From Luteibacter jiangsuensis (GTDB lineage: Bacteria; Pseudomonadota; Gammaproteobacteria; Xanthomonadales; Rhodanobacteraceae): a stretch of 64,000 nucleotides of DNA. Position 1 is the stretch's first letter. Each line of letters begins with the position of its first letter. The notes under the pieces are model-generated. The model searched no databases and was not told the DNA's origin. It saw nothing but the letters and a program-made list of their open reading frames with translations. Positions 20,396 through 52,019 of this stretch are shown here, piece after piece. The translations under genes were made by a program, and so were the position numbers. The stretch is from the NCBI RefSeq assembly GCF_030812295.1, contig NZ_JAUSSK010000002.1, positions 434,001-498,000 of the forward strand, given 5' to 3'.

Positions 20396-23300
20396 CTAAA
20401 GCCTGGCCCGCAAACGCTTCGCCCCGGCCGGAACCTTCACCTCACCCGACGGTAGCGAAAGAACGACCCCTCCCGGCACGTCCACCGGCTGCGTGATCTC
20501 AAGCACCGCTTCCCCGCCCTTCGCCTTCAGCGTGTAGCCGAACCGCCCGTAAGGCGTGCGCAGGTCGCGAATCGCCATGCCCTCACCATCCAGCCATCCG
20601 GGCTGCACGCCGGCGGCGATCACCAGCGCACCATCGGACTCGCGGTCGTAGGCGAACATGTCCAGTGCCGAGCGCACGTAGTCCGAGGCGATCCACGCAT
20701 GCGGCATGTCACCTACGAAACGCGGTTCACGCGGATCGCGGCCGACCACTTCGGCCCACTGGTTCCAGGCGGCAGGACGGCGGTCGGCGAAGAAGAAGGT
20801 GACGAGCTCATCGAGCCGGTCACGCCAGCCGAGCCGGATGAAGCTGGCGATCGTGCGCAGTTCGTACGGCGTGTAGTCTTTCCACGCGGTCTTTCCATCG
20901 CGGCGCGCGACGAAGCCGCGCCAGTAGGTCTCGAAGGTGTTCTCGAGCAAGACCTTCGGCAGCCTCGACTGCTCGCCTCCCGGCGACAGTGCGATGGTGG
21001 TCGAGGTCGCGTCGAAATCGCCCAGCTCGGCCGAACCGGGAATGAAGTCGATGCCCTTCGCTTTCACCGCCGCGGCTATGGACGCATGCAAGTCGTCGCG
21101 GAACTGGTCGCGCGACGCGACGAAACGCTTCGCGTCATCCGGCTGGCGAAGTGCCTGCGCGAGTTCAATGGCGTCGTCGTAACCCTTCAACGCCCAGAAA
21201 TCGTCCCAGTACGAATGCATCGGCTTGGTCGAATAGCCCTCATGGCTGATCGATGCGGGCATCAGTCCGTAAAGAGCCCGATCCGGTCCATTCAGCCGTG
21301 ACGGCATGCGTTCGCTCGCGCGCAGCCCGTCCATATAGGCGACGGCCTTGCGTACATGCGGATACAGTGCCTCCACCGTCGCGCGATCGTGCGTATAGCG
21401 CCATAGCTCCGCCACGCTGAAGATCAGTTCACCGTGGCTATCGTTCTCGGGAACGGGATCGGAACCGCGAGCGTCGACGCAACACGGCACCTTGCCGTTG
21501 GAGAACTGATGTGGCGCGTACCAGCGGATGAACTCGGAGGCCACGTCTTCATGGCCCGTACGCAGCAAGCCCTCCAGCATCATCGCGCCGTCGCGGACCC
21601 ACGTGCGCGAATAGGACCGGGTCCCCGGCTGCAAGGCCGGACCGTCGCGAGACATCAGAATCTGCGCGATGCCGCTCTTCATCGTGTCGACGATCGGTCG
21701 TGCCACGCCAGGCACGGTGACCGTGACACGATCCAACTTGTCGCGCCATGAAGCCGCGACCGCATCGGCATGACTGGTGAGCCAACGCTCGGCATCGTCC
21801 GGCACAGCGACAACGTCATCTGGCTTTACCGGAACGACGATGCCGAGATCCATGTGGCCGTGCGCGGGCACGTGCAGGTTATAGAGCAGCGCACCCTGGG
21901 CAAAGCCGCCATCATCATGCAGCGTCTTCATCGAAGGCCGTTCGCCGGCATCCAGGCGTTCGCTCAGGGTCGTCGGCTGGTTGGTGCTGGCGACAAAATC
22001 GGTTGCCGCCCGCAAGGGGATCACCTTGCGCCTGCCATTGACGGTAAGCGCCTTGCCATCCCAGGCGAGATCGTCGATACGGCTGATGCCACCGGGGGCG
22101 TTGAGGAACTGGGTGGGCGGATTCACCTGGAAAGGCCGCGCGGCCAGGGCCAACGTGACATCGCGGGCCTTGCCGCCGCTGTTCTCCACCCGGTAGTCCA
22201 CCACCAGCTGTGACGCACCCGCCGGGCCCTGTGCGAAGGCGGTGGTCGTCAGCGCGAGGTCGCCAGCCTGCCAGTGAACGGAAGGCATGGGAAGGTAGCC
22301 ATCGCGCAGCGACTGGCTCGTCGTCACATCGGCCCAGGTGATGAGCTTGCGGCCATCGATCAGGAATGGCTCGATGGAGAAACCGCCGCGCACGACTTCG
22401 ACGGCGCCGTCTTCGGAGATCAGCGCCGAGTCTCGGCTGCCACCGTCGACGCCGACGATGGTCCAGTACGACTGCTCGCCGGAGAAGCCGCGCGGATAGA
22501 GGCCGCGACGCACTTGCTTCGCGCGCGATTCGAAGATGGCATTGGGCGTGGGTGGCGGGACGGGTACGGCTTCGGGCTTACGCGCGACAAGACGAAGGTT
22601 ATCGAAGCACACCTCACCCTTGTTGGCGCCAGGTGCCAGGGGACCCGTTGTGGGAGCCGCTTCAGCGGCGATGGGTGCTTGCTCCAGGCTGGCCCGCTGC
22701 CGCGGGATCGCCGCTGAAGCGGCTCCCACAGGGATGCCGCCGGCTGGAGACTTGTTGGCGTTGGCGTTGGCGTTGGCGTTGGCCTGGGCCTCGGCGTAGA
22801 TCATGAACTCCACGTCGCGCGTGTGCCGCAGCGTGCGGTCTTTGACCGGACCCCAGGCGAATTCCACCTGGCGGCTCGTGGCCTCGATCGTCTGCCAGGC
22901 ATCGCTCGGGACGAAGGACGGTTTCTGGAACCACCACACGTTGTCGCCGCTGTCATCGATCAGCTTGAGCTGCAAGGTGCTCGGCGGCATGTTTCCGCGC
23001 ACATCGAAGCTCAGCGCGAAACCGTCGGGAAAATCGATCGGCAAGGTCTTACGGATGGACGCCGCGCCGGAAACGCCGTTGAAATCGTAATCGAGGCAGA
23101 TCGCCTGCCCGGTCTTTCCGGGAACGCCGCGAAGCGTGGCGGAGACGTCGTCGGTGTGTGTCGCCTCCCAGCCGCTGGTCGTATCGAAGTTGTCGAGCGC
23201 CTTGGGGGCTGAAGATGCCGGAGCCGCCGGAGCCGCCGGGGGCGTCGCCGCTGTCGCGGAAGCAGCAACGGAGGCGCCCGCGATGAGTAGCGCGAACAAT

Positions 23301-23494
23301 GTCCCACGCAGCCCCTTCGAAGCCGCCGCCACTCTGGTGGGAGCCGCTTCAGCGGCGATCCCGCGGCAGCGGGCCAGTGTGAGGCGAGCACCCATCGGCG
23401 CTGAAGCGGCTCCCACCAGTGAGGTTCCCACAAGTGAAGCTCTCCCAGGTGGGGCCCCCACAAGCGCGGTTCCTTCCGTATGGTTCTGCTTCAT
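20396..23494 (-). CDS. Large secreted carbohydrate-active protein interrupted by two REP copies
   Basis: The protein has 1032 residues. Order: an odd N-terminal extension (about 1-53) encoded by REP sequence; a signal-peptide-like segment (GLRGTLFALLIAGASVAASATA, about 55-80); a carbohydrate-binding beta-sandwich (LDNFDTTSGWEAT to FDNLRLVARKP); and an (alpha/alpha)6-barrel domain resembling GH15/GH78-type enzymes (SYSRTWVRDGAMMLEGLLRTGH, YWDDFWALKGYDDA, GDMPHAWIASDYVRSALD). No catalytic acid can be assigned with confidence. Start ATG 23494 lies just after the permease stop. A downstream GTG (about 23320) would restore a normal signal peptide but has no ribosome-binding site. It is the last gene of the sugar operon. 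Confidence 0.8.
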   Translation of the reverse strand: MKQNHTEGTALVGAPPGRASLVGTSLVGAASAPMGARLTLARCRGIAAEAAPTRVAAASKGLRGTLFALLIAGASVAASATAATPPAAPAAPASSAPKALDNFDTTSGWEATHTDDVSATLRGVPGKTGQAICLDYDFNGVSGAASIRKTLPIDFPDGFALSFDVRGNMPPSTLQLKLIDDSGDNVWWFQKPSFVPSDAWQTIEATSRQVEFAWGPVKDRTLRHTRDVEFMIYAEAQANANANANANKSPAGGIPVGAASAAIPRQRASLEQAPIAAEAAPTTGPLAPGANKGEVCFDNLRLVARKPEAVPVPPPTPNAIFESRAKQVRRGLYPRGFSGEQSYWTIVGVDGGSRDSALISEDGAVEVVRGGFSIEPFLIDGRKLITWADVTTSQSLRDGYLPMPSVHWQAGDLALTTTAFAQGPAGASQLVVDYRVENSGGKARDVTLALAARPFQVNPPTQFLNAPGGISRIDDLAWDGKALTVNGRRKVIPLRAATDFVASTNQPTTLSERLDAGERPSMKTLHDDGGFAQGALLYNLHVPAHGHMDLGIVVPVKPDDVVAVPDDAERWLTSHADAVAASWRDKLDRVTVTVPGVARPIVDTMKSGIAQILMSRDGPALQPGTRSYSRTWVRDGAMMLEGLLRTGHEDVASEFIRWYAPHQFSNGKVPCCVDARGSDPVPENDSHGELIFSVAELWRYTHDRATVEALYPHVRKAVAYMDGLRASERMPSRLNGPDRALYGLMPASISHEGYSTKPMHSYWDDFWALKGYDDAIELAQALRQPDDAKRFVASRDQFRDDLHASIAAAVKAKGIDFIPGSAELGDFDATSTTIALSPGGEQSRLPKVLLENTFETYWRGFVARRDGKTAWKDYTPYELRTIASFIRLGWRDRLDELVTFFFADRRPAAWNQWAEVVGRDPREPRFVGDMPHAWIASDYVRSALDMFAYDRESDGALVIAAGVQPGWLDGEGMAIRDLRTPYGRFGYTLKAKGGEAVLEITQPVDVPGGVVLSLPSGEVKVPAGAKRLRARL
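22650..22729. repeat. REP-type palindromic repeat, copy C, inside a coding region
   Basis: An 80-base element has perfectly complementary 23-base ends, starting GTGGGAGCCGCTTCAGCGG and ending CCGCTGAAGCGGCTCCCAC. It lies within the binding domain of the large secreted protein and is read through in frame as a Pro/Ala-rich insert (PVGAASAAIPRQRASLEQAP). Confidence 0.93.
22754..22783. repeat. Hexanucleotide repeat (GTTGGC)5
   Basis: Five exact copies of GTTGGC occur in the coding region of the large secreted protein. On the minus strand they encode alternating Ala-Asn. They lie 25 bases from REP copy C. Gain or loss of units would change length by two residues without a frameshift. Confidence 0.9.
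23337..23416. repeat. REP-type palindromic repeat, copy D, inside a coding region
   Basis: This is an 80-base element of the same subtype and length as copy C, starting GTGGGAGCCGCTTCAGCGG at 23337. It lies between the start codon and the signal peptide of the large secreted protein and is translated as part of an N-terminal extension. Its right arm runs straight into the four 15-base tandem repeats. Confidence 0.92.
23412..23471. repeat. Four 15-bp tandem repeats next to REP copy D
   Basis: There are four consecutive 15-base units: CCCACCAGTGAGGTT, CCCACAAGTGAAGCT, CTCCCAGGTGGGGCC and CCCACAAGCGCGGTT. Their first bases are the outer end of the REP arm. On the minus strand they encode a five-residue repeat close to (A/T)SLVG, so the duplications keep the frame. 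Confidence 0.8.
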
Positions 23495-23496
23495 GC

Positions 23497-24318
23497 TCAA
23501 CCCTTGACGCTGCCCAGAAGCAGGCCTTCCAAGTAGTAACGCTGCAAGGCGAGGAACAGGACCAGCACGGGCAGGATGGTCACGACCGATCCTGCCATCA
23601 TCAACTCGCTGTCCTGCACATGCTCGCGCGACAACGACGCCAGTGCGATGGGAAGGGTGTAATGCTCCTGCCCGGTCAGCGCGATCAACGGCCACATGAA
23701 ATCGTTCCACGCGGCGAGGAAGGTGAAGATGGCGAGCGTCACCATGATCGGCTTGAGCAGCGGCATCACGATCGTGGCGAAGATGCGGAACTCACCTGCT
23801 CCGTCGATGCGCGCGGCTTCCATCAGGTCGTCCGGAATGCCGCTGGCATACTGGCGGACGAGGAAGATACCGAAGATCGTGGCCAGCGCGGGCACGATCA
23901 CCGCGCCGTAGGTATTCACCAGGCCCATGTACTTCAGCAGCAGGAACAACGGCAGCATCGCCACCTGCGCCGGAATCACCAATGCGCCGAGCAAGACCTG
24001 GAAGAGGCGCTGGCGCCCCTTGAACTCCAGCTTGGCGAAGGCGTAGCCGGCCATCAGGTTGAAAGCCAGCGAGATCACGGTGATGGCCGTGGAGATCAGC
24101 AGGCTGTTGAACAGGTATCGGCCCATGCCGGCGTTGAGGAAGAGCTGCCGGTAGTTGTCCAGCGTGGCGTGCGTGGGCAGCACGGGCGGAGGCAGCGAGC
24201 TGGCCTGTCCCTGCGGCATGAACGACACCGAGACCATATAGAGCAACGGCGCGATGGCGATCGCGGCGCCACCGATCAACAAGCCATTGATGAGGGCTTT
24301 CGCCATGCGCGGGCTCAT
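23497..24318 (-). CDS. ABC sugar transporter permease, MalG type
   Basis: The 273-residue inner-membrane permease has six predicted helices and the cytoplasmic EAA loop EAARIDGAGEFRIFATIVMPLLKP that contacts the ATPase. The C-terminal LLLGSVKG is typical of MalG-type proteins. Start ATG 24318 overlaps the stop of the MalF-type gene as ATGA, so the two are translationally coupled. It imports sugar delivered by the lipoprotein at 25190. The cognate ATPase is not encoded here. Confidence 0.93.
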   Translation of the reverse strand: MSPRMAKALINGLLIGGAAIAIAPLLYMVSVSFMPQGQASSLPPPVLPTHATLDNYRQLFLNAGMGRYLFNSLLISTAITVISLAFNLMAGYAFAKLEFKGRQRLFQVLLGALVIPAQVAMLPLFLLLKYMGLVNTYGAVIVPALATIFGIFLVRQYASGIPDDLMEAARIDGAGEFRIFATIVMPLLKPIMVTLAIFTFLAAWNDFMWPLIALTGQEHYTLPIALASLSREHVQDSELMMAGSVVTILPVLVLFLALQRYYLEGLLLGSVKG

Positions 24319-25193
24319 GCCGCTTCCCCTCGCTTCGACAGGCGAAGCATCGCAGCGGTGACCGCGAACATGATCACGAAGAGGATGAAGGCCACGGCCG
24401 AAGCCGAACCGAGGTTCCACCACTTGAAGCCTTCCTCGTACATCAGGTACAGCACCGAGGTCGTGCTTTGCAGCGGGCCGCCTTCGGTCATCACATAGGG
24501 CTCGGCGAACAACTGGAAGTAGCCCGAGACGGTGAGGATGCTGACCATCACCATCGTGGGCTTCAGCATCGGCAGCGTGATGTGGCGGAACTGCGCGATG
24601 GCCGAGGCGCCGTCGATGCGCGCGGCTTCGTACAAGTCCCCGGGGATCGCCTGCAATCCAGCCATGAAGATGATCATGTTGTAGCCGAAGTTCTTCCACA
24701 CCGCGAAGAGGATGATCGTGGGCATCGCCCAATGCGGGTCGCCGAGCCAATCCACGGTCGGCATGCCGATCGAGTCGAGCACGTAGTTGATGAGTCCATA
24801 CTTCGTGTTGAACAGGTAACGCCAGATCACCGCGACGGCCACCACCGTGGTGACCACCGGTGCGAACAAGGCGGTACGGAAGAACGGCTTGAAACGGGCC
24901 AGGGGCGAGTTCAGAAGCATCGCCGCGCCCAGCGAGGCGATCAGCGACAACGGCACGCCTACCACCACGAAATACACGGTATGGCCCAAGGCCGACCAGA
25001 ACAGCGGACGCTGCAGCAGCGACCAGTAGTTCTGCAGGGCGACGAAACGCAGGTTGCGGATGTCCGCCAGTGCGTAGAGGTCGTAATCGGTGACGGATAG
25101 GAACAATGCCGCGACGACCGGCAGCAGGAAGAACAGCCCGAGGATGATCAGCGCGGGAGTGACGAAGAGCCAGGCGGCGCGGGTGGTGTTCAT
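24315..25193 (-). CDS. ABC sugar transporter permease, MalF type
   Basis: The 292-residue inner-membrane permease has six to seven helices and the EAA loop EAARIDGASAIAQFRHITLPMLKP. It starts MNTTRAAWLFVTPALIILGLFFLLPV, usual for the CUT1 family. It overlaps the solute-binding protein stop by four bases upstream and the MalG-type gene by four bases downstream, a tight three-gene transporter unit. Confidence 0.93.
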   Translation of the reverse strand: MNTTRAAWLFVTPALIILGLFFLLPVVAALFLSVTDYDLYALADIRNLRFVALQNYWSLLQRPLFWSALGHTVYFVVVGVPLSLIASLGAAMLLNSPLARFKPFFRTALFAPVVTTVVAVAVIWRYLFNTKYGLINYVLDSIGMPTVDWLGDPHWAMPTIILFAVWKNFGYNMIIFMAGLQAIPGDLYEAARIDGASAIAQFRHITLPMLKPTMVMVSILTVSGYFQLFAEPYVMTEGGPLQSTTSVLYLMYEEGFKWWNLGSASAVAFILFVIMFAVTAAMLRLSKRGEAA

Positions 25194-26482
25194 GGTGTTG
25201 CCTTGTGGCCGTGGTCCAGCATCCAGCGGCGCTTTTCCAGGAGACGGTCGGCGCGCCGGTCGATTTCCTCGGCGGCCTGGTCGATCGTGAGATCGCCGTG
25301 CGCAGCCTGTGCCGCGACCAACTGCATTTCGGTGACGATACGCTCCCACTCGGCGACGGGCGGCGTGGGCTTCACGCGTTCCAGCTGGTCACGGAACGCC
25401 GTGGCCTTGTCGTCGTCCTTCAGGGCGGGGGCCTGCCACGAGGACCGGCGAGGTGGCATGTCGCCAAGGATTTCGTAGAACCGTGCCTGGATCGCCGGAC
25501 GGGAGAGGAATTCGATGAGCGCCCACGCGTCGTCCTTGTGCTTCGACGCCCGATAGATCACCAGGCTGGAGCCGCCCGCGTTCGACGCGCCCGGCCCGTT
25601 CGGACCAGGCAGCGCCACGGTGCCCCAGTCGCCCTGTTGCTCGGGCGGCAAGCGCTTGCGGAACTCGCCGATGTTCCAGGGACCGGAAAGATAGAACGCA
25701 TAGAAGCCCTGGCCAAACGCGGCCCAGGGATTGCCGATGCCGACGTTGGTCATCATCGGCGCCTGCTGGTCCTTGAACATCGAGACATAGAAGGCCAGCG
25801 CCTTCTTGAATCCCGCGCTGCGGAAATTGCCATAGCGTCCATCGTCGCGTAGCAGCGGATCGTCCTGCTGCAAGGCCAGCGCAAGCAGTTGCTCGAACTC
25901 ATTGGTGGGCAACAGCACGCCATAGGCCTTGCCTTGCGGTCGGGCCAGCCGTGCCATCATCGCTTGCCATTCGGTCCAGTCGCGTGGCGGGTGGTCGTAA
26001 CCCACCTTGGCGAGCAGGTCCTTGCGGTAGAAAAGCAGGCGGGTATCGACGTACCAGGGCACGCCATAGAGCGTGCCGTCGATGACATTGGTCGACCAGA
26101 TCGCGGGAAAGTAATCGTCGCGGGCGATGATCTTCGAACTGGCGACACGCGCATCGAGTGGCTCGAGCGCCCCGAGCGCCACCATCTCCGGAATCCATGT
26201 GTTGCCGAGTTGCGTGATGTCCGGAGTCGAGTCGCCCGCGTACGCGGTAAGCAGCTTCTGGTGCGCAGCCGTGAGCGGCAGCTGCTGTATTTCGACATGC
26301 AGGCCCGGATGTTCGGCCTCGAATTCGGGCAGTAGCTTCGCCACCGCCTCGCCCTCGCGGCCGATCGTCCAGAACTGCAAGGTCCGCGTGCCCTGCTCCT
26401 GTTTCGCGCAGCCGGCGATCCCGGCACCGGCAAGGGCCAGCGCCAGGGTTACGCACAGGACGCGCGCCGCGCGCTTCACCAT
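25190..26482 (-). CDS. Sugar-binding lipoprotein of an ABC transporter
   Basis: The 430-residue CUT1 solute-binding protein has a lipobox AGIAGC (Cys25). The mature fold shows LQFWTIGREGEAVAKLLPEFEAEHPGLHVEIQ and the ligand-side motifs GVPWYVDTRLLFYRKDLL and FYLSGPWNIGEF. Aromatic residues (Trp, Tyr, Phe) in these motifs suit an oligosaccharide ligand. Its start overlaps the stop of the glycoside hydrolase upstream by seven bases. Confidence 0.93.
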   Translation of the reverse strand: MVKRAARVLCVTLALALAGAGIAGCAKQEQGTRTLQFWTIGREGEAVAKLLPEFEAEHPGLHVEIQQLPLTAAHQKLLTAYAGDSTPDITQLGNTWIPEMVALGALEPLDARVASSKIIARDDYFPAIWSTNVIDGTLYGVPWYVDTRLLFYRKDLLAKVGYDHPPRDWTEWQAMMARLARPQGKAYGVLLPTNEFEQLLALALQQDDPLLRDDGRYGNFRSAGFKKALAFYVSMFKDQQAPMMTNVGIGNPWAAFGQGFYAFYLSGPWNIGEFRKRLPPEQQGDWGTVALPGPNGPGASNAGGSSLVIYRASKHKDDAWALIEFLSRPAIQARFYEILGDMPPRRSSWQAPALKDDDKATAFRDQLERVKPTPPVAEWERIVTEMQLVAAQAAHGDLTIDQAAEEIDRRADRLLEKRRWMLDHGHKATP

Positions 26483-27963
26483 AGGTTGGCTTCCGTATCG
26501 GCATCGAGCCAGCCGCCGGTGAAGCCGGCGCGCTCGAGGCCCTTGCGGATGTACGGGTTCTTCTTCATCACGTTCCAGACGAACTCGCTACGGTAGTTTT
26601 CGATCATCAGCACGATCGGTCCCTGGTCGATGCCCAGGTGCACCGTATCCGCCCATCCGAAGCCCGGTATCAGCCTGCCCGTGCGCAAGTCGGTCTGCGT
26701 ATGGAAGCTGAGGTTGAAGGCGTCGACGAAACCGTACTTCGTATAGATGTACTGGCCATATTTCTTCTTCATTTCCTCCAGCGCGGGGATCACGATCTCC
26801 GGCGCGAAGGCGATGGAGCCGCCCGCGGCCGTCGGCACGATCGTGCCGTCGTCGGAAATGTAGTCGAGACCGGCGCCGCGAGCGGTATAGCCGGCGAAGG
26901 TGCGCTCCTTGTCACCCTGCTTCACGATCAAGCCACCCGGACCGTTGCTGGCGGTGAGACCCCATACGTTCTTGCCGTAGCCGGTCCAGCCGCCAGGATT
27001 GGCTACGGCGTAGGCCTGCTGCGAATACGTGGCACGGCGGCTGTTCTCGAAGTAGTCGATGTTGTGTGCGCGGCTCCAGGCGTCGCGGATGCCGCGGAAG
27101 TCCACCCAGGTGTGGCTGTACTGGTGCCCGAACAGCGGTGCGAAGTTGAGGAAGGTTTGGCCGTGGAATGCGCCCCAGGTCTTGTCGTAGGTCTTCGTCC
27201 AGGCGGTCCAGGCGTCATCGCCCACCGGATGGGTGGGTGAGCCGAGCGCCATGATGTAGACGAGCATGCCCTCGTTGTAACCGGCCCAGTCGTGCGGGAT
27301 CTGCTTGCCGCCCGGCGTCCAGCCCATGCTGATCAGCGGCTTGTGGTTCTGCGCCCAGGTCCACTCCACGCGTCGGTAGATGTCGTCGGCGAGGCCGCGG
27401 ATTTCCTTTTCCTTCGCATCGTCGCGGTCGTAGTAGCTCTGCGCGAACAGCACGCCACCAAGCAACAACGTCGTGTCGACGGTGGACACCTCCACCCAGC
27501 GATCGTGGCGCTTGCCGGTTTCCATGTTGAGGAAGTGATAGAAGAAACCGTGATAGCCGGTGGCATCGTCTTCGGAATCGTTCTGCGGCGCGTCGTGGAA
27601 GAAGCGCAAGGTGGCCAGCGTGCGGTCGACCGCCTGTTCGCGCGTGATGTAGCCGCGCTCCACGCCGACGCCGTATGCGGTAAGGCCGAAGCCCACCGAG
27701 GCGATCGAGGCGAAGGAGTTGGTCGGGTAGTGGTCGGGAATGAGGCCGTTCGACGGGTTGGCGCTGTCCCAGAACCACTGGAAGGTTCGCTTCTCCAGAT
27801 CCGCGACCATCGGTGGTACGGGATGGACGTCCTTGATCGCCACCGCGTGGGCGTGAGTCGGCTTGGGCGTCTCCTTTTCCGCCATGGCCAGCGGCGAGGC
27901 GAAGGCGAGGAGGACACCGAGGGCGAGGAAGAACGAGAGACGCTTTGTCGTTTTGGCTTGCAT
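26476..27963 (-). CDS. Glucoamylase-family / GH144-type glycoside hydrolase
   Basis: The 495-residue secreted protein has a signal peptide of about 28 residues (LALGVLLAFASPLAMA) and an (alpha/alpha)6 barrel of the Pfam glucoamylase family, COG5368. Motifs: FQWFWDSANPSNGLIPDHY, FYHFLNMETGKRH, WAGYNEGMLVYIMALGSP, FGHQYSHTWVDFRGIRD and SIAFAPEIVIPALEEM. Characterised GH144 members are endo-beta-1,2-glucanases, so a beta-1,2-glucan substrate is a reasonable inference. It is first in the operon with the ABC transporter, and a LacI-type operator lies 19 bases upstream. Confidence 0.88.
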   Translation of the reverse strand: MQAKTTKRLSFFLALGVLLAFASPLAMAEKETPKPTHAHAVAIKDVHPVPPMVADLEKRTFQWFWDSANPSNGLIPDHYPTNSFASIASVGFGLTAYGVGVERGYITREQAVDRTLATLRFFHDAPQNDSEDDATGYHGFFYHFLNMETGKRHDRWVEVSTVDTTLLLGGVLFAQSYYDRDDAKEKEIRGLADDIYRRVEWTWAQNHKPLISMGWTPGGKQIPHDWAGYNEGMLVYIMALGSPTHPVGDDAWTAWTKTYDKTWGAFHGQTFLNFAPLFGHQYSHTWVDFRGIRDAWSRAHNIDYFENSRRATYSQQAYAVANPGGWTGYGKNVWGLTASNGPGGLIVKQGDKERTFAGYTARGAGLDYISDDGTIVPTAAGGSIAFAPEIVIPALEEMKKKYGQYIYTKYGFVDAFNLSFHTQTDLRTGRLIPGFGWADTVHLGIDQGPIVLMIENYRSEFVWNVMKKNPYIRKGLERAGFTGGWLDADTEANLW

Positions 27964-27981
27964 GACGCGGATCCTAGCTGT

Positions 27982-27993
27982 GTAAACGTTTAC
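27982..27993. promoter_or_regulatory. LacI-family operator before the glucanase-transporter operon
   Basis: GTAAACGTTTAC is a perfect 12-base palindrome with the central CG typical of LacI/GalR operators. It sits between the halogenase-like gene and the glucanase start. A near-identical site lies upstream of the locus LacI-type gene. Confidence 0.8.
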
Positions 27994-28077
27994 GCCAGAG
28001 GGCCGGAGAAAGGCCCCGAAGGGCCTTGGTCGAACGAGAACCATACGTACCGGCTGGTCCCCTGGCAATCGCGCATG

Positions 28078-29598
28078 TCATGACACCACCTGTGGTGCGC
28101 GGCATTCGCGGTCGATGAACTGCTGGTGGGTGGGCATCAGGTCGACGTTCTTCGAGACGACGTCGCGAATGCTGGCGAGAAACCTCGGAATATCCTCATC
28201 GGGCATCTGATCGACCAGCGGATCGTAGCCCCTCGGCATGATGCCCTGGCCGATCATCACCTGGATCCAGCTGACCACGGCGAACATCTCCTCCGCGGTA
28301 CGGAAGAAGCGGCCGCTGTGGCGAAACAGGTCGATGTTTTCCTGCAACGAAGCCGGAATCGACATGTTCCTGCAATCGTTCCAGAAAGGTGAGTCGTCGC
28401 GTGCGGTGGCCTTGTAATGCAGGATCAGGAAGTCGCGGATGCGCTCCGCCTCGAAGCGAGTCTGCGAGTTGTAGCGGTCGACCAGCACAGGGTCCATCAC
28501 GCCATCGGACGGGAAGAGCTGAAGCAACTTCGAAATACCTGCCTGGATCATATGAATGCTGGTCGATTCCAGCGGCTCCATGAAACCGCTGGCGAGACCG
28601 AGCGAGACCACGTTCCGGTTCCATGCTTTCTTTCGGATGCCGGTGACGAAGCGTAGCGGACGAGGGTCCGCCAGGGCTTCGCCATCGAGGTTCGCCAGGA
28701 GCTTCGCGGCGGCCTCGTCATCGCCGATATGGCGGCTGGAATACACGTAGCCGTTGCCGGTGCGATGCTGCAGTGGGATGCGCCATTGCCAGCCCGCCTC
28801 GCGCGCGGTGGAACGCGTATACGGCGTCGGCGCTTCCACGCGCGCGCATGGTACGGCCAGCGCGCGATCGCATGGAAGCCAGTGGCTCCAGTCCTCGTAA
28901 CCGGATGCCAATGCGCCTTCGATGAGCAACCCGCGAAATCCGGAGCAGTCGATGAAGAGGTCGCCCTCGATACGCTCGCCGTTGGCGAGCAGCACCGCGG
29001 CGACATGGCCTGATTCCGGATGCAATTCGACGTCCTGGATCTTGCCTTCGCTGCGCCTGACCCCACGCGCTTCCGCATATTCGCGCAGGTAGCGGGCATA
29101 GAGCGACGCGTCGAAGTGATACGCATAGGCGATGCCGCCGAGAGGATTGTTTGCGGGTACGTCGACCGGCGCGGGCATGAACTTGCCGCGGATGGCCGCA
29201 ACGGTGTTGACGGAGTAGTCGCCCAGATCGGCGGCACAGCCTGCCTGCCGGCCCTTGAGCCAGAACTGATGGAATGGCGTCAGGCCGATGTCGTGGCCCA
29301 TCACGCCGAAACCGTGGATATAGGAGTCGCCCAGTTTGCCCCAGTCGCGGAACTGGATGCCGAGCTTGAACGTGCCCTGCGTGCGGGCGACGAAGTCGGC
29401 TTCGTTCAATCCCAGCAGGTTGTTGAAGAGCTTGATGTGCGGAACGGTGGCTTCACCGACACCGACGATTCCGATCTCGTCGGACTCGACGAGCCGAACG
29501 GTCACCTTCCGGCCGAGCACGCGTATCAGTGCGGATGCCGCCATCCAGCCGGCGGTGCCTCCACCGACGACGACGATATGGGTGATGCCGTTGTTCAT
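28078..29598 (-). CDS. Tryptophan-halogenase-family flavoprotein
   Basis: The 506-residue protein has the FAD motif GGGTAGW at 12-18, and Lys78 in [11 protein letters not shown] at the position of the catalytic Lys of PrnA. It also has WQWRIP at 270-275, the WxWxIP signature of flavin-dependent halogenases, and EPLEST at 341-346. All core residues are therefore present. Xanthomonad relatives sit next to TonB receptors in sugar loci, and their real substrate is unknown. It follows the TonB receptor gene by 105 bases on the same strand. No flavin reductase is adjacent. Confidence 0.88.
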
Positions 29599-29703
29599 CG
29601 CTGGACCGCTGCGGCAGTGGCTAAGAAATGCGCCCGCGGGGAGACGCGCGGGCGCCAAGTACGGCGCACCCGGCCATGCGTGCCGGATGCGCCGCTGGAA
29701 CGC

Positions 29704-32700
29704 TTAGAACTTGAAGCCAGCCGTGAAGCGGGCGGTACGCGGCACGAACTGGATGTTGCCGTTCTTGTTGAACACGACTGGAGTGCCCGTCGGAGCGCCG
29801 ATGGTTCCGAAATTCGTGTTGTAGTCGACCAGGTTCTTCCAGTTGAAGACGTTCAGGATGTCGAAGCGGATGTAGAACTTCGTCTGGTCGTTTTCGTTGA
29901 GCACGAAGTCTTTCGTGGCCTGGAAGTCGATGTCGCGATAACCCCAGATCTTGCCGCCAACGAGGAACTTCGAACCCGGCGGCGTAAAGGCGGCAGGACG
30001 ATTGGCCTCGCCTGTCGGGAAGAGATATCCCCCGCCGTAGCCATACGTGCCATTCCAGGGCAGCGGCGTCGCCAGGGTCAGCTTCGCCGAGAAGGTGAAG
30101 CCCCACGGACCATCCAGCGAGCCGGTCGCCACGAAGCGATGTTTCGACGCCGCGTTCGAGGTGACGAACGGGTAATCCTGGATCGTGGCCTCGTCGAACG
30201 AATAGTGTTCCTTGATGTCGCGGTTCTGCTTGGCGCGCGTATAGGTGTACGCGAAGTTGGCGCTCCAGCCCGACTCGCGGGTATACGGCTTGTCGGCCGA
30301 CAGCAGTACCTGGGTCGTGCGGGTGCGGATGCCGTTGTTACCGATGATCATCGAGCCGAAGCCGGGCACGCCGTTGTTCCAGGGCTGGCTGCCGTTCTGG
30401 AAGAACGAGCCGTCCGGGTAGCGGTTGCCCAGCGTGAAGGCGAAGCCGTCATACGAGAGCACGCGCGTGATCGTCGCATCCGTGTTCCAGTCGCCGAGCT
30501 TGTTCGACATGCCGATGCTGAACTGATCCGAATACGGAGCCTTCAGGTCGTTGTTCATCATGTCGACCTCCTGGCCCTTGTTCGAGCCGGCGACCAGCGC
30601 CTGCAGGTTCTCGAGGCCATTGAGGTAGGAGGGATCCCAGTTCACGCAGTTCGTGTTCGGACCGACGTTGCAGCTGCGGCCAGGGATGTTGAAGAAGATC
30701 TCCTGGTACGGCAGGGCCGACTTGGTCTGTTCCAGCTGCAGGTAATCGTAGAGATTGCGGTCGTACGAGCGGCCCGCGCCGCCGTGGATCACGTGCTCTT
30801 CGTCGGCGAACAGGTCGTAGGAGAAGCCCAGCCGCGGCGCCCATTGATTCTGCGCGTGGCGGTTGTGTCCGTTGCTGATGTAGTCCTGGTAGTTAATACC
30901 GCCCTTGGCCAGCGTCTGCGCATAAGTCTGGCCCGGGAACTGGCCCTGGGCGTTCGGATCGAGCGAGTTGAAGCCGTCGATCACGTTCTGCGGCGTGACG
31001 TAGTCGAGGTAGGACGGGGTTTTTTCCTTGTCCCAGCGTACGCCGAGGTTCAGGATGAGGTGGTCGTTGATCGACCAGTCGTCCTGGATGTACGCACCGT
31101 ACTGCTTGCTGTTGGTCTCGGCGATCGAATTCAAACCCGCCACCGGATTGGAGAACTGCGCCCGGTACGGCAGCTCGTTCGTGCCGTTTTCATCGACGTT
31201 GTAGAAGAACTGCGGGTTGGTGTTCTGCGCATCCTGCGCGTGCAGCGTGACTTCCTTGTACTTGTAACCCACCTTGACGACGTGGTCGCCGTGCCAGGTG
31301 AGGTCGTTGAAGGTGAAGTCGTCCGAGATCATCGGACCTTCCTGGCCCTTGATCTGGGTGGCCAGTGCCGAGGCCGAGCCGATGCCGATGATGGCCGCGT
31401 CGTTGTTCGGGCGCCAGGTGTAGTTATAGCCGTTGCCGTAGTTCAGCGGCAGCGGATCGTTCGATGAGTTCTCGTACGAGGCCTTGAACTCGTTGAAGAA
31501 CCAGTCGCCACTGTGCTGCCAGCGGAAGGTGCCGCGGGTGTCGTGGTTCTCGGTGGTGATGGATTGCTCGCGCGACTGGCCCGCACCGATGTTGTCGGCC
31601 TGGGTCTCGCGGCGGACCTGGGTGCTGATCTCGATGCGGTCGCGATCGGTCAGTTCCCAGTCGATCTTGCCGAAGTACAGCTTTTCGTCGAACGGCAGGT
31701 TGGCCGGACCCAGCGCGGCCTGGGCGGCCGCCGGAAGCAGGCCGACGGCGGACGCGGGTACATTGGAGCCCGGCGTGACGGTGATCGGCGTATCGAACTT
31801 CTTCTGCTCGAAGGTCACGAAGAAGTGCATCTTGTCCTTGATGATCGGACCGCCGAGCGCGAAGCCGTATTCCTTCTCGAACGAGCGCGCCTTGTCGCCG
31901 TTTTCTTCGGCGGGGGTGCGGCTGCGGTACTTGTCCGAGGTATAGGTATCGAACACCTCGCCATGGAATTCGTTCGTGCCCGACTTCGTCTCCGCCGTGA
32001 TCGCTGCCGACGAGACCTGGTCGTACTCGGCCTTGTAGTTGCTGGTGATGACCTTGTACTCACCGATGGCCAGCTGAGGGAACGGGTTGCCCTGGCTGTT
32101 GACCTGGCCGGCGACGCCACCTTCCTTCACGTAGCTCTTCTGGCCCACGCCGTCGATGAAGACGTTGACCGAGCTGTTGTTCTGCGCACCGCCGCGCAGC
32201 GAGGTATGGCCCTGCGCGTCGACGCTGAACACCATGCCCGGCACGGTGTCGGCGAATTCGAGGAAGTTGCGCGACACCTGCGGGATGGTCTGGATCTGGC
32301 GCAGCGAGATCGTCTTCGCGACTTCGGGTGTCCTCACCTCGGTCAGCGTCGTGGCGCTCACCGTCACGCCTTCCAGCGATGCGGCATTCGCCGCGTTGGC
32401 GGTGACATCGCCGGCGGCGGGAGCCGCGGCGGCGAGGTTCAGCGTCGCGGTCGACGCGACGGTCACCGTCACCGTCTGTTCGGTGCCCGGACCCGCGTCG
32501 ACCTTGTACGTCGCCGGCGGCAGGCCATTGATGATGTACATGCCATCCGCGCCGGCCTTGGCGTGGCGCGTCAGGCCCGTCTGCGGATTGAACGCGGTGA
32601 CGTTCGCGCCAGGCGAAGCCTTGCCGCGAAGGGTCGCGTTGGCCGACTGCGCGAACGCCGGGGGCGACACCACGGCGGCGGCGACGGTCGCGGTGATCAC

Positions 32701-32742
32701 GCCGGCGAGGATCTTCTTCTTCAACTGCATCGAGGCTTTCAT
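29704..32742 (-). CDS. TonB-dependent receptor with N-terminal carboxypeptidase-regulatory-like domain
   Basis: The 1012-residue Oar-type receptor has a signal peptide (about 1-31) and a CarboxypepD_reg-like domain (ATLRGKASPGANVTAFNPQTGLTRHAKAGADGMYIINGLPPATYKV). A Thr/Ala linker, a plug domain (NFLEFADTVPGMVFSVD, VNVFIDGVGQ) and a large barrel ending RTARFTAGFKF follow. It is presumed to import an oligosaccharide across the outer membrane for the ABC system downstream. ATG 32742 is preceded by GGGAGAGGGGAA. It lies directly downstream of the LacI-type regulator gene, same strand. Confidence 0.92.
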   Translation of the reverse strand: MKASMQLKKKILAGVITATVAAAVVSPPAFAQSANATLRGKASPGANVTAFNPQTGLTRHAKAGADGMYIINGLPPATYKVDAGPGTEQTVTVTVASTATLNLAAAAPAAGDVTANAANAASLEGVTVSATTLTEVRTPEVAKTISLRQIQTIPQVSRNFLEFADTVPGMVFSVDAQGHTSLRGGAQNNSSVNVFIDGVGQKSYVKEGGVAGQVNSQGNPFPQLAIGEYKVITSNYKAEYDQVSSAAITAETKSGTNEFHGEVFDTYTSDKYRSRTPAEENGDKARSFEKEYGFALGGPIIKDKMHFFVTFEQKKFDTPITVTPGSNVPASAVGLLPAAAQAALGPANLPFDEKLYFGKIDWELTDRDRIEISTQVRRETQADNIGAGQSREQSITTENHDTRGTFRWQHSGDWFFNEFKASYENSSNDPLPLNYGNGYNYTWRPNNDAAIIGIGSASALATQIKGQEGPMISDDFTFNDLTWHGDHVVKVGYKYKEVTLHAQDAQNTNPQFFYNVDENGTNELPYRAQFSNPVAGLNSIAETNSKQYGAYIQDDWSINDHLILNLGVRWDKEKTPSYLDYVTPQNVIDGFNSLDPNAQGQFPGQTYAQTLAKGGINYQDYISNGHNRHAQNQWAPRLGFSYDLFADEEHVIHGGAGRSYDRNLYDYLQLEQTKSALPYQEIFFNIPGRSCNVGPNTNCVNWDPSYLNGLENLQALVAGSNKGQEVDMMNNDLKAPYSDQFSIGMSNKLGDWNTDATITRVLSYDGFAFTLGNRYPDGSFFQNGSQPWNNGVPGFGSMIIGNNGIRTRTTQVLLSADKPYTRESGWSANFAYTYTRAKQNRDIKEHYSFDEATIQDYPFVTSNAASKHRFVATGSLDGPWGFTFSAKLTLATPLPWNGTYGYGGGYLFPTGEANRPAAFTPPGSKFLVGGKIWGYRDIDFQATKDFVLNENDQTKFYIRFDILNVFNWKNLVDYNTNFGTIGAPTGTPVVFNKNGNIQFVPRTARFTAGFKF

Positions 32743-32929
32743 TGTTCCCCTCTCCCAAATGTTTTCTATGTGTGTGATCCACGGAGTCGACATGGCTGTC
32801 GTATCGCGGTGGTTGAACCACTCTCGGAGCGTTATGCCCCCGTGTCTCGCGTCGAGCGAAGTCCTGAGATTGACGCCGTCCTGGGGAGTCCCATCCACGG
32901 CCCGGCAAGCCGTGCGTTCCGACGGGGCG
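32743..32929 (-). promoter_or_regulatory. Upstream region of the locus TonB receptor
   Basis: This 187-base gap must contain the receptor promoter unless it is read through from the regulator gene. It lacks a copy of GTAAACGTTTAC. It does contain GTGGTTGAACCAC at 32809-32821, a perfect 13-base palindrome with a central G. That could be another operator or chance. Confidence 0.35.
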
Positions 32930-33952
32930 TCAGGCCCGTCGTCGTACCGTGTCGCCGCCGCCACATGAGGCGCGCACGACCAGTTCAGTGCCGACGACGA
33001 CGCGCGGTTCGGGCGCGGCGTCCTCGGGTGCCTCGATCATCTTGACGAGGCGTTCCAGCGCCGCTTCGCCCAACTCGGCGATGCGTATGCGGACGGTGGT
33101 AAGCGGTGGCGTCACGTAGCGCGCCATGGGAATGTCGTCGTAGCCGACCACGGCGATGTCGTCCGGCGTGCGCACCTTCGCCTCGGAAAGCGCGGAAAGG
33201 CAGCCGATCGCCATCATGTCGTTGGCGGCGAAGATCGCGTCGGGGCGCGGCACCATCGCCAAGGCCTGCTTGCCCGCGTGATAGCCGGACTCCTCGGTGA
33301 AGTCGCCCGGCAGGATCACGGCGCGCTCGCCGAGACCGGCCTTCGCCAATGCCTCGCGATAGCCGCGCGCGCGTTCCTGCACATCGTGGTTCACCTGCGG
33401 ACCCGCGATGAAGACGATGCGCTTGCGGCCGAGGTTCAGCAGGTGCTCGGTCATCGCGCGGGCGCCGCCGAAATCGTCGACATCGAGCGAGGCATGGCGA
33501 TCGGAGCGCACGTGGCTGTTGATCAGCACGGTCGGCAGCACGATCGGCAGGTTCTCGTCGAGGAAGGCCTCGTCGGCGTGGGGTGACATCACCAGCAGGC
33601 CGTCGACCCGGCCCTGCATCGCGCGCAGGGCGATCGCCGCTTCCGTGGCATCGCCATGCGAGCTGGAAACCAGCATGTACAAGCCACGCGCACGGGCAGC
33701 GAGGTCGATGCCGCGGATCAGTTCGGAGAAGAAGGCGCCATGCAGGTCGGGCAGCAGGGCGCCGATCGTCTGCGTGCGGCGGGTGATGAGGCTGCGCGCC
33801 GCGTTATGCGGGACGTAGCGGAGGCGGGCCGCGACCTCGCGGATACGCTTCTGGGTTTCCGCCGTCACGCCGCCGTGGCCGTTGAGGGCGCGCGAGACGG
33901 AAGCCACCGATACGTTGGCCATTCTCGCGACGTCTTTGATCGTCACACTCAC
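32930..33952 (-). CDS. LacI-family transcriptional regulator of the sugar locus
   Basis: The 340-residue regulator has an N-terminal helix-turn-helix (TIKDVARMANVSVASVSRALNGHGGV) with hinge helix PHNAARSL. A periplasmic-binding-like effector domain follows (VDGLLVMSP, VGYDDIPMARYVTPPLTTVR). The start is a GTG at 33952 with AAGGG ten bases upstream; a second GTG two codons later is possible. An operator-like GTAAACGTTTTC lies 48 bases upstream, suggesting autoregulation. A perfect version lies before the glucanase operon. Confidence 0.92.
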   Translation of the reverse strand: MSVTIKDVARMANVSVASVSRALNGHGGVTAETQKRIREVAARLRYVPHNAARSLITRRTQTIGALLPDLHGAFFSELIRGIDLAARARGLYMLVSSSHGDATEAAIALRAMQGRVDGLLVMSPHADEAFLDENLPIVLPTVLINSHVRSDRHASLDVDDFGGARAMTEHLLNLGRKRIVFIAGPQVNHDVQERARGYREALAKAGLGERAVILPGDFTEESGYHAGKQALAMVPRPDAIFAANDMMAIGCLSALSEAKVRTPDDIAVVGYDDIPMARYVTPPLTTVRIRIAELGEAALERLVKMIEAPEDAAPEPRVVVGTELVVRASCGGGDTVRRRA

Positions 33953-41690: not shown

Positions 41691-41792
41691 CGAATGGGCG
41701 GGAGCTGGAACCGTGTAAGAGTCCGAACCTCGTAGAAGCCGAAACCTGGTAGAAGCCGGAACCTGGTGGGAGCCGGAACCTGGTGGGAGCCG
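41691..41792. repeat. 17-bp tandem repeats running into REP copy E
   Basis: Four clear 17-base units occupy 41725-41792: GAACCTCGTAGAAGCCG, AAACCTGGTAGAAGCCG, then GAACCTGGTGGGAGCCG twice. They are preceded by decaying units at 41708 and about 41691. The last unit is also the first arm of the REP element. Units become less perfect with distance from the REP. Confidence 0.88.
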
Positions 41793-41865
41793 ACCTTGTC
41801 GGCGATCCCGCGGCAGCGGGCCAGGGTTGAGGCAAGCACCCATCGCCGACAAGGTCGGCTCCCAC
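41783..41865. repeat. REP-type palindromic repeat, copy E
   Basis: Complementary ends GTGGGAGCCGACCTTGTCGG and CCGACAAGGTCGGCTCCCAC enclose the internal hairpin CCCGC-GGCA-GCGGG. It lies between the convergent glycosyltransferase and patatin genes and may act as a terminator for both. Confidence 0.92.
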
Positions 41866-51701: not shown

Positions 51702-52019
51702 GTGGGAGCCGACCTTCGTGGGAGCCGACCTTGTCGGCGATCCCGCGTCAGCGGGCCAGGTCATGGCAAGCACCCATCGCCGCTGAAGCGGCTCCCACAA
51801 GAGCACGGTGGTTCGACGCGTTGCTTGGTGGGAGCCGACCTTGTCGGCGATCCCGCGGCAGCGGGCCAGGTCATGGCGAGCACCCATCGTCGCTGAAGCG
51901 GCTCCCACAAGAGCACGGTGGTTCGACGCGTTGCTTGGTGGGAGCCGACCTTGTCGGCGATCCCGCGGCAGCGGGCCAGGTCATGGCGAGCACCCATCTC
52001 CGACAGGGTCGGCTCCCAC
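51702..52019. repeat. REP array: 110-bp units in tandem, copy G
   Basis: Three tandem units with a 110-base period (phase points 51721, 51831, 51941) each begin GGAGCCGACCTTGTCGGCG and contain the hairpin CCCGC-GGCA-GCGGG and the arm CGCTGAAGCGGCTCCCAC. Units 1 and 2 differ at only three positions. Unit 3 switches its right arm to the GACAGGGTC subtype. An extra partial arm precedes unit 1. The array fills nearly all of the 419-base gap between divergent peptidase genes; no gene is seen in it. Confidence 0.95.

Follow-up and report, generated by a model that had tools for sequence, protein, structure and literature searches.

The window analysed here is a stretch of 64,000 nucleotides from Luteibacter jiangsuensis, and the feature under study lies at the coupled junction of two of its minus-strand genes, one for an ABC permease and one for a glycosidase-like secreted protein. 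The original prediction, made from this DNA alone, placed the ATG of the second gene two bases past the permease stop and an in-frame REP with four 15-bp repeats between that start and the signal peptide; both proved right, the frame being open throughout. The GTG it had put near 23320 is at 23332 (codon 55), and it had overlooked a second in-frame REPIN further on in the same gene.

From the ATG the gene runs through nine codons, the 15-bp units (the second divergent, the last overlapping a REP head), REPIN 1 and a stretch ending in SKGLRGT to a hydrophobic core, which begins at codon 66 (23299) and is followed, after codon 82, by a predicted AxA-type cleavage site, judged by eye. Six further start codons lie in frame along this path, namely GTG 23461, 23431 and 23416, ATG 23395, GTG 23332 and TTG 23299. 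Our home-made codon-usage caller starts the gene only at 23044, past the signal peptide, because the repeat region is codon-atypical.

Table 1 Features of the locus and of the associated repeat system. Positions are those of the window unless a contig (C2) or locus (L196) is named.
Feature	Position	Strand	Remarks
Glycosidase-like secreted-protein gene, 1032 aa	20396..23494	-	ORF frame; predicted signal peptide, CBM11-like β-sandwich and six-hairpin glycosidase-like region
Upstream ABC permease gene	23497..24318	-	PF00528; stop TGA 23499-23497, 2 bases before the ATG
Shine-Dalgarno-like AAGGG within the permease 3' end	23501..23505	-	GTNAARGG at the junction in 23/23 orthologues
Start codon ATG of the glycosidase-like gene	23492..23494	-	from orthologue comparison
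Four in-frame 15-bp units resembling a REP head	23408..23467	-	ALVGA/PPGRA/SLVGT/SLVGA
REPIN 1, inverted REP pair in frame	23334..23419	-	read VGAASAPMGARLTLARCRGIAAEAAPT; arms 23394-23419 / 23334-23359
In-frame ATG inside REPIN 1	23393..23395	-	possible restart
In-frame GTG right behind REPIN 1	23330..23332	-	worst-scoring of the six inner starts by Shine-Dalgarno energy
Signal-peptide hydrophobic core and AxA-type site (predicted)	23249..23299	-	LFALLIAGASVAASATA, codons 66-82
Five perfect 6-bp tandem repeats	22754..22783	-	GTTGGC on the plus strand; encode an ANAN stretch; adjoin REPIN 2
REPIN 2, in frame	22649..22730	-	VGAASAAIPRQRASLEQAPIAAEAAPT, codons 256-282; inverted copy of REPIN 1 (pair I1)
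RAYT-like gene, 152 aa	C2:1044335-1044793 (L196:6335-6790)		PF01797; REPIN 52 nt downstream

Family searches place the secreted protein near the six-hairpin glycosidase types, with PF17389 and PF06202 both below their cut-offs, and an NCBIfam search returned no useful name; no relative was found in the viral contigs searched. Its N-terminal domain, modelled over 260 residues from 23 sequences (mean pLDDT 78), is a confident β-sandwich whose top four Foldseek matches are all CBM11 structures (1v0a, 6r3m, 6r31 and 2lro), 1v0a being the best (E 5.3e-10, target TM 0.74, 16% identity). On this model the domain would have the CBM11 fold; the CBM11 Pfam profile gave no match in the protein at E up to 0.1. 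REPIN 2 occupies a loop with pLDDT below 50 between the last two strands of this domain. It was not found in any of the 22 other orthologues, and three of these (from genomes G020, G005 and G012) hold shorter, different inserts at its position. On the same strand lie genes for two ABC permeases, a solute-binding protein, a Glycoamylase-family protein (PF10091), a tryptophan-halogenase-family protein (PF04820) and an outer-membrane TonB-type receptor (PF00593, PF25183), and because of these transporter, Glycoamylase, halogenase and TonB-type neighbours we regard window positions 20396-32964 as probably a glucan-use locus.

The resident REP family and where its copies settle

REPIN 1 is an imperfect palindrome built as an inverted pair (inverted-repeat score 23.5, p at the 1/101 floor set by shuffles), with a head, GTGGGAGCCG, that has 574 copies in the genome (291 + 283) against 89 (54 + 35) for a reversed control. 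For the 201-bp stretch 23300-23500, at least 86 matches were counted in this genome (a figure that includes the stretch itself and the palindrome's second-strand matches), with 40 of 263 first-look candidates scored, and the contig holding the window (C2, 1.06 Mb) contains 45 full REPINs. The foot of the family is GTGG, a variant of GTAG, and PF01797, the family of the RAYT-like gene in Table 1, is over its cut-off in 22 of the 23 genomes of the genus. With an inverted imperfect palindrome, a high copy number, a GTAG-variant foot and a RAYT in the genome, REPIN 1 is a member of the genome's resident REP family.

Of the 98 REP clusters in C2, 45 were assigned to gaps between two genes of the same strand; REPIN 1 counts among them, since the caller starts the window gene at 23044. 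These 45 lie a median of 35 nt behind the upstream stop and 123 nt ahead of the next called start, and 36 are closer to the stop (p = 6.6e-5). A preference of REPs for gene 3' ends has been reported in a published survey (PMC3733652, in part).

The lengths of the 45 REPINs are spread evenly modulo 3 (16/15/14) and 204 of their 270 frame readings are open (about 76%), so that a random insertion would be both open and in frame in about 25% of cases, on the assumption that net insert length is random modulo 3. A rule by which every ORF open through a REPIN is coding was rejected because about 76% of readings are open anyway; coding cases were accepted only with orthologue or junction evidence.

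Several other arrangements of the repeats were seen in the genome. Between divergent genes at window positions 51702-52002 lie 2.6 tandem copies of a 110-bp REPIN unit (96% matches), and the gene to their right, which opens with a signal peptide, begins about 50 nt past them; at 41726-41793, four 17-bp tandem units resembling REP-head variants adjoin a REPIN. In other tandem REP heads of C2 the spacing is 13-30 nt, with 18 the commonest value (5 of 13 pairs); the coding units of the window gene measure 15. An aminotransferase (PF00155; L095:1148-2140) has an in-frame REPIN inside its enzyme domain, with matches flanking the REPIN on either side in about ten other genomes, and G015 and G006 may hold an insert there too. 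A protein without a Pfam hit (L083:1333-1700) has one immediately after what looks like a signal peptide; in the 22 other genomes the matches to this protein start only at residue 100-126, except in G011 (from residue 51) and for a weak separate match in G013. The frame reading VGAASA...IAAEAAPT is common to these two proteins and to both REPINs of the window gene, and another reading, WEPTL, is used in the RlpA and serine hydrolase of the same genome.

Palindromes in the orthologous leaders

The gene was found in all 23 genomes of the genus, the best match in each of the 22 others being 69-84% identical, and every orthologue has, a few bases at most from the permease stop, an ATG or GTG in frame with the signal peptide. 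In 16 of the 23 the n-region has no significant palindrome and this same start runs directly into the signal peptide, the core beginning at codons 3-13. In the other seven the core begins at codons 32-67, and the n-region has a palindrome whose significance reaches the floor of 1/101 set by shuffles. All seven inserts are in frame and open into the core; their repeat arms begin 16-77 nt past the permease stop. The insert of the window genome (G000) is of the GTGGGAGCCG family, those of G006, G018, G001, G003 and G022 are GTAG/GTGG-footed with GCGC stems (G003 with a one-base variant), and that of G002 is a CGTC palindrome with 90 matches in its own genome. Judged by this comparison, insertion is recurrent in the genus and involves at least three palindrome families, and the predicted rewriting of the gene's 5' end by a mobile palindrome is supported by the absence of the extension from 16 congeneric orthologues.

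In a tree of the protein without its leader (23 genomes and five outgroups, a sixth, L018, being left out), the carriers fall in four places, namely G000, G006, G002 and a five-member clade, four of whose members carry an insert and one of which has an empty site; G015, a near-sister of G006, also has an empty site. The fewest presence changes on the tree number five. Parsimony together with family membership suggests about four separate origins at least and possibly seven, and the four carriers within the clade of five may go back to one insertion. A comparison of L114 with L115 places a REP-like GGGCGCGCTCCTGC in the empty leader of G015 where the REPIN ends in G006; one may speculate that this is a deletion remnant now encoding part of the hydrophobic core, or it may be chance.

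The abundance of REP families differs widely among close species, from 2 to 1368 GTRGGAGCGCGC heads per genome of the genus, and nearly all have one PF01797 match. The five GTRG inserts of the window gene all lie in the 12 genomes with at least 50 such heads and none in the other 11 (p = 0.037, with the threshold chosen after the counts were seen). N-termini were also compared at L001-L022 of 80 loci, 11 of these 22 being outside Luteibacter; the repeat check there covered L011 alone, from Rhodanobacter panaciterrae, which has another repeat at the same site, with 53 matches in its genome.

RlpA and other junction genes

We surveyed tight junctions in C2 (1.06 Mb, 190 REP heads, home-made gene caller), taking starts from -12 to +15 nt relative to the upstream stop. 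There are 245 such starts, 224 of them ATG or GTG, and five have a REP head within 90 codons. Four of these five genes have a signal peptide, judged by eye: the window gene, an RlpA-family lipoprotein (TIGR00413 over its cut-off), a serine-hydrolase-type lipoprotein (PF00144; a single REP, no pair) and a NodT-type efflux lipoprotein (TIGR01845 over its cut-off), for which orthologue comparison puts the true start at an ATG eight codons before the listed GTG. The fifth, at a TTG, probably starts downstream. The resulting enrichment of signal peptides (4/4 against 93/224, p = 0.029; 4/5, p = 0.085, with the TTG case) is suggestive only, in a test of four cases under a crude hydrophobic-stretch criterion that counts membrane proteins too. 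Two candidates were set aside on the judgement that the REP lies in the leader and the true start downstream, namely the TTG at C2:1001837 and the gene after C2:941652 (folE-like by reading).

Samples of 400 kb from other places gave no further ATG- or GTG-start case in the REP-rich genomes G018 (0 of 128 tight junctions) and G004 (1 of 67, at a TTG that is probably no true start), and no junction case in the same genome as the window (G000:C1:400001-800000, 0 of 88). The effect thus looks rare genome-wide and concentrated in particular junctions. The serine hydrolase has its REP in G000 only, of 23 genomes, and for the NodT-type gene we saw REP arms in G000, one in G021 and a half-like motif in G007.

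RlpA is the second gene in which such inserts recur. It was compared in 22 species, G011 having no RlpA match, and its n-region contains a palindrome in 15 of them (uncorrected p 0.01-0.04, from 100 shuffles each in 22 tests); G012 and G020 have REP motifs without a significant palindrome, and five species have neither. By foot, the inserts divide into six with GTGGGAGC, six with GTAGGAGC (three of each kind, GCGCGC and GTAGGAGCCCAC) and three with CGTCG. In 21 of 22 species the RlpA start and the upstream stop share an ATGA, and 14 of the 15 inserts are in frame. By our reading, though not by computation, the RlpA inserts fall into about ten lineages; at least nine of ten in frame has p = 3e-5 at an expectation of 25% and 4e-4 at one third. 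In G018, G002 and G014 there is no other in-frame ATG, GTG or TTG before the RlpA core, later ones lying inside it. In G013 (L279) reading from the ancestral ATGA start ends at a stop 21 codons on, and a REP-like stretch contains the next in-frame ATG; the ancestral start being out of frame, a new one must be used, and the repeat appears to have supplied it. This gene shows the effect of an out-of-frame insertion. A link between RlpA inserts and REP abundance was dropped, since a strict count gave 3/12 against 0/10 (p = 0.22) and the value of p = 0.015 had lumped two GTAG subfamilies.

How the repeats are probably read, and related systems

We consider it likely that REPIN 1 was inserted behind the permease stop and is read in frame as a long signal-peptide n-region, and that such insertion is recurrent in the genus, in this gene and in RlpA. 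The element would have been inserted by the resident RAYT, landing just behind the permease stop, the usual kind of place for REPs, and with the next start two bases past that stop it would have come to lie between start codon and signal peptide. Where start and stop nearly coincide, an element of this kind falls in the first codons of the next gene, and its survival would need a tolerant N-terminus. Signal-peptide n-regions are tolerant of change. The insert being in frame and free of stops, translation from ATG 23494 would read through it and yield a secretory protein with an n-region of about 65 residues, mostly repeat-encoded, that is presumably exported normally. Loosely constrained n-regions may be one of the few coding places at coupled junctions where REPs survive, and the REP frames used supply arginines (for example in CRSALARD and SRASALLQ), which would suit an n-region.

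The window copy alone is ambiguous, because four inner codons outscore ATG 23494 (-4.3 kcal/mol) in Shine-Dalgarno energy, namely GTG 23431 (-7.3), TTG 23299 (-6.7), GTG 23461 (-5.7) and ATG 23395 (-5.6 kcal/mol). These values would suit a restart at an inner codon; on that reading, with GTG 23332, TTG 23299, ATG 23395 or GTG 23431 as the start, REPIN 1 would effectively be a 5' untranslated region and the n-region would be short or medium. The RlpA of G013, where the ancestral frame is lost, must restart, and for many REPs found at the 5' ends of ORFs it has been argued that translation may start downstream of them, which would make them extragenic (PMC3733652, in part). We nevertheless think a restart unlikely in the window gene. 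All 23 orthologues have the junction start in frame, and frame retention in seven of seven inserts would be unexpected in an untranslated stretch (about 0.25 per insertion; p = 0.004 if there were four events, 6e-5 if seven). Moreover, in the G002 and G022 orthologues none of the codons between the junction start and the core is ATG, GTG or TTG (a GTG at codon 38 of G022 is inside the core), so that the leader should be read there unless a rarer start is used. It is the orthologue series, not the window copy alone, that favours translation of the leader. The restart originally predicted at GTG 23332 is weakened by that codon's Shine-Dalgarno energy (-2.0 kcal/mol, the worst of the six inner codons), and restarting only there was not adopted; the idea of a restart as such gains from the inner codons that outscore the ATG. 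The accompanying prediction that a translated leader would bury the signal peptide was not supported, as six other species have in-frame palindrome leaders open into the core, two of them (G002 and G022) lacking a common inner start ahead of it.

Compatible with an in-frame leader, though in our view rather unlikely, is that REPIN 1 serves mainly as an RNA element whose hairpin protects the permease mRNA or damps the downstream gene, coding being a by-product. REP-mediated stabilisation of mRNA at operon junctions is established in E. coli, the REPs of C2 sit close behind upstream stops, and the RNA strand of REPIN 1 is predicted to pair into a stem some 20 bp long; the 196 nt folded have an energy of -99.5 kcal/mol (z -2.83), which 2 of 200 shuffles matched. 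However, ribosomes from ATG 23494 would melt this hairpin, and the REPIN is not needed for the operon, because the site is empty in 16 of the 23 orthologues. That the gene is degenerating, an insert having disabled its export or expression and the frame having stayed open by chance, might be read from its codon-atypical N-terminus and from the second REPIN and hexamer repeat in the same gene; but the remainder is open, its best matches in 22 other genomes are 69-84% identical, REPIN 2 spares the conserved strands, falling in a low-confidence loop, and inserts recur in other orthologues with open frames, all of which makes degeneration very improbable.

A wider claim than that of an in-frame leader in these two genes, which we put forward tentatively as quite possible if short of probable, is that n-regions at coupled junctions are a general landing pad for REPs in this lineage. 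Unrelated families would insert behind the stop, be translated as arginine-containing n-regions and be kept, replaced or lost, remodelling the starts of exported proteins and perhaps the rate at which these are made and exported.

The prevailing view has REPs mostly outside genes, and copies at the N-termini of ORFs have come under suspicion as start-site errors (PMC3733652, in part). Together, the junction starts, the retention of frame across species and the absence of inner starts from some species speak for the repeats being translated here, at one place that matters functionally. If so, the genus would offer a natural series of signal peptides with repeat-encoded n-regions of 30-65 residues beside close relatives without them, in which the tolerance of the Sec pathway for long n-regions is directly testable. 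The preference of REPs for gene 3' ends would be tied to a predictable effect on the next gene, and in REP-rich genomes the same cause may have led to wrong start annotation for some secreted proteins.

No report of recurrent REP insertion in signal-peptide n-regions was found in the part of the open-access literature covered, and the following comparisons draw on parts of the papers cited. Very long Sec signal sequences exist in autotransporters (PMC2805444), but there they belong to autotransporters and two-partner secretion proteins, whereas those of Luteibacter would be REP-derived and sit on a glycosidase-like protein and on lipoproteins; no autotransporter or two-partner secretion family is among the family matches of the window protein. 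In YPO1552 an enterobacterial repeat, RU-2, forms part of one protein's predicted signal (Delihas 2007, PMC2759123). In Luteibacter, by contrast, most of the hydrophobic core is native sequence, and what the repeat lengthens, in several species, is the n-region. Rickettsia palindromic elements are in-frame palindromes in protein genes, read as extra peptide (PMC10969869), and the window gene behaves similarly, with in-frame, stop-free inserts that are absent from orthologues (16 of 23 sites empty for REPIN 1, 22 of 22 for REPIN 2). The Rickettsia elements, however, are reported from many unrelated genes, whereas in Luteibacter one gene site has been hit repeatedly by different palindrome families.

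Closest are the REPs themselves. REPs inside ORFs and the CGTC and GTAG families are known (Di Nocera and colleagues, 2013, PMC3733652, in part), and the intragenic GTAG and CGTC palindromes described there include N-terminal cases; many of those were judged possibly non-coding, whereas in Luteibacter the target is the signal-peptide n-region and the evidence argues for translation. The system as a whole resembles REP/REPINs with their RAYT (TnpAREP), the biochemistry of which has been studied (PMC8266576, in part), in its high-copy GTRG-footed palindromes, inverted pairs and RAYT-like gene in the genome. It differs in location: REPINs are mostly intergenic in the literature (PMC8266576, in part), whereas the Luteibacter copies sit in frame behind a coupled start codon and ahead of a signal peptide, a position reached repeatedly and by several families.
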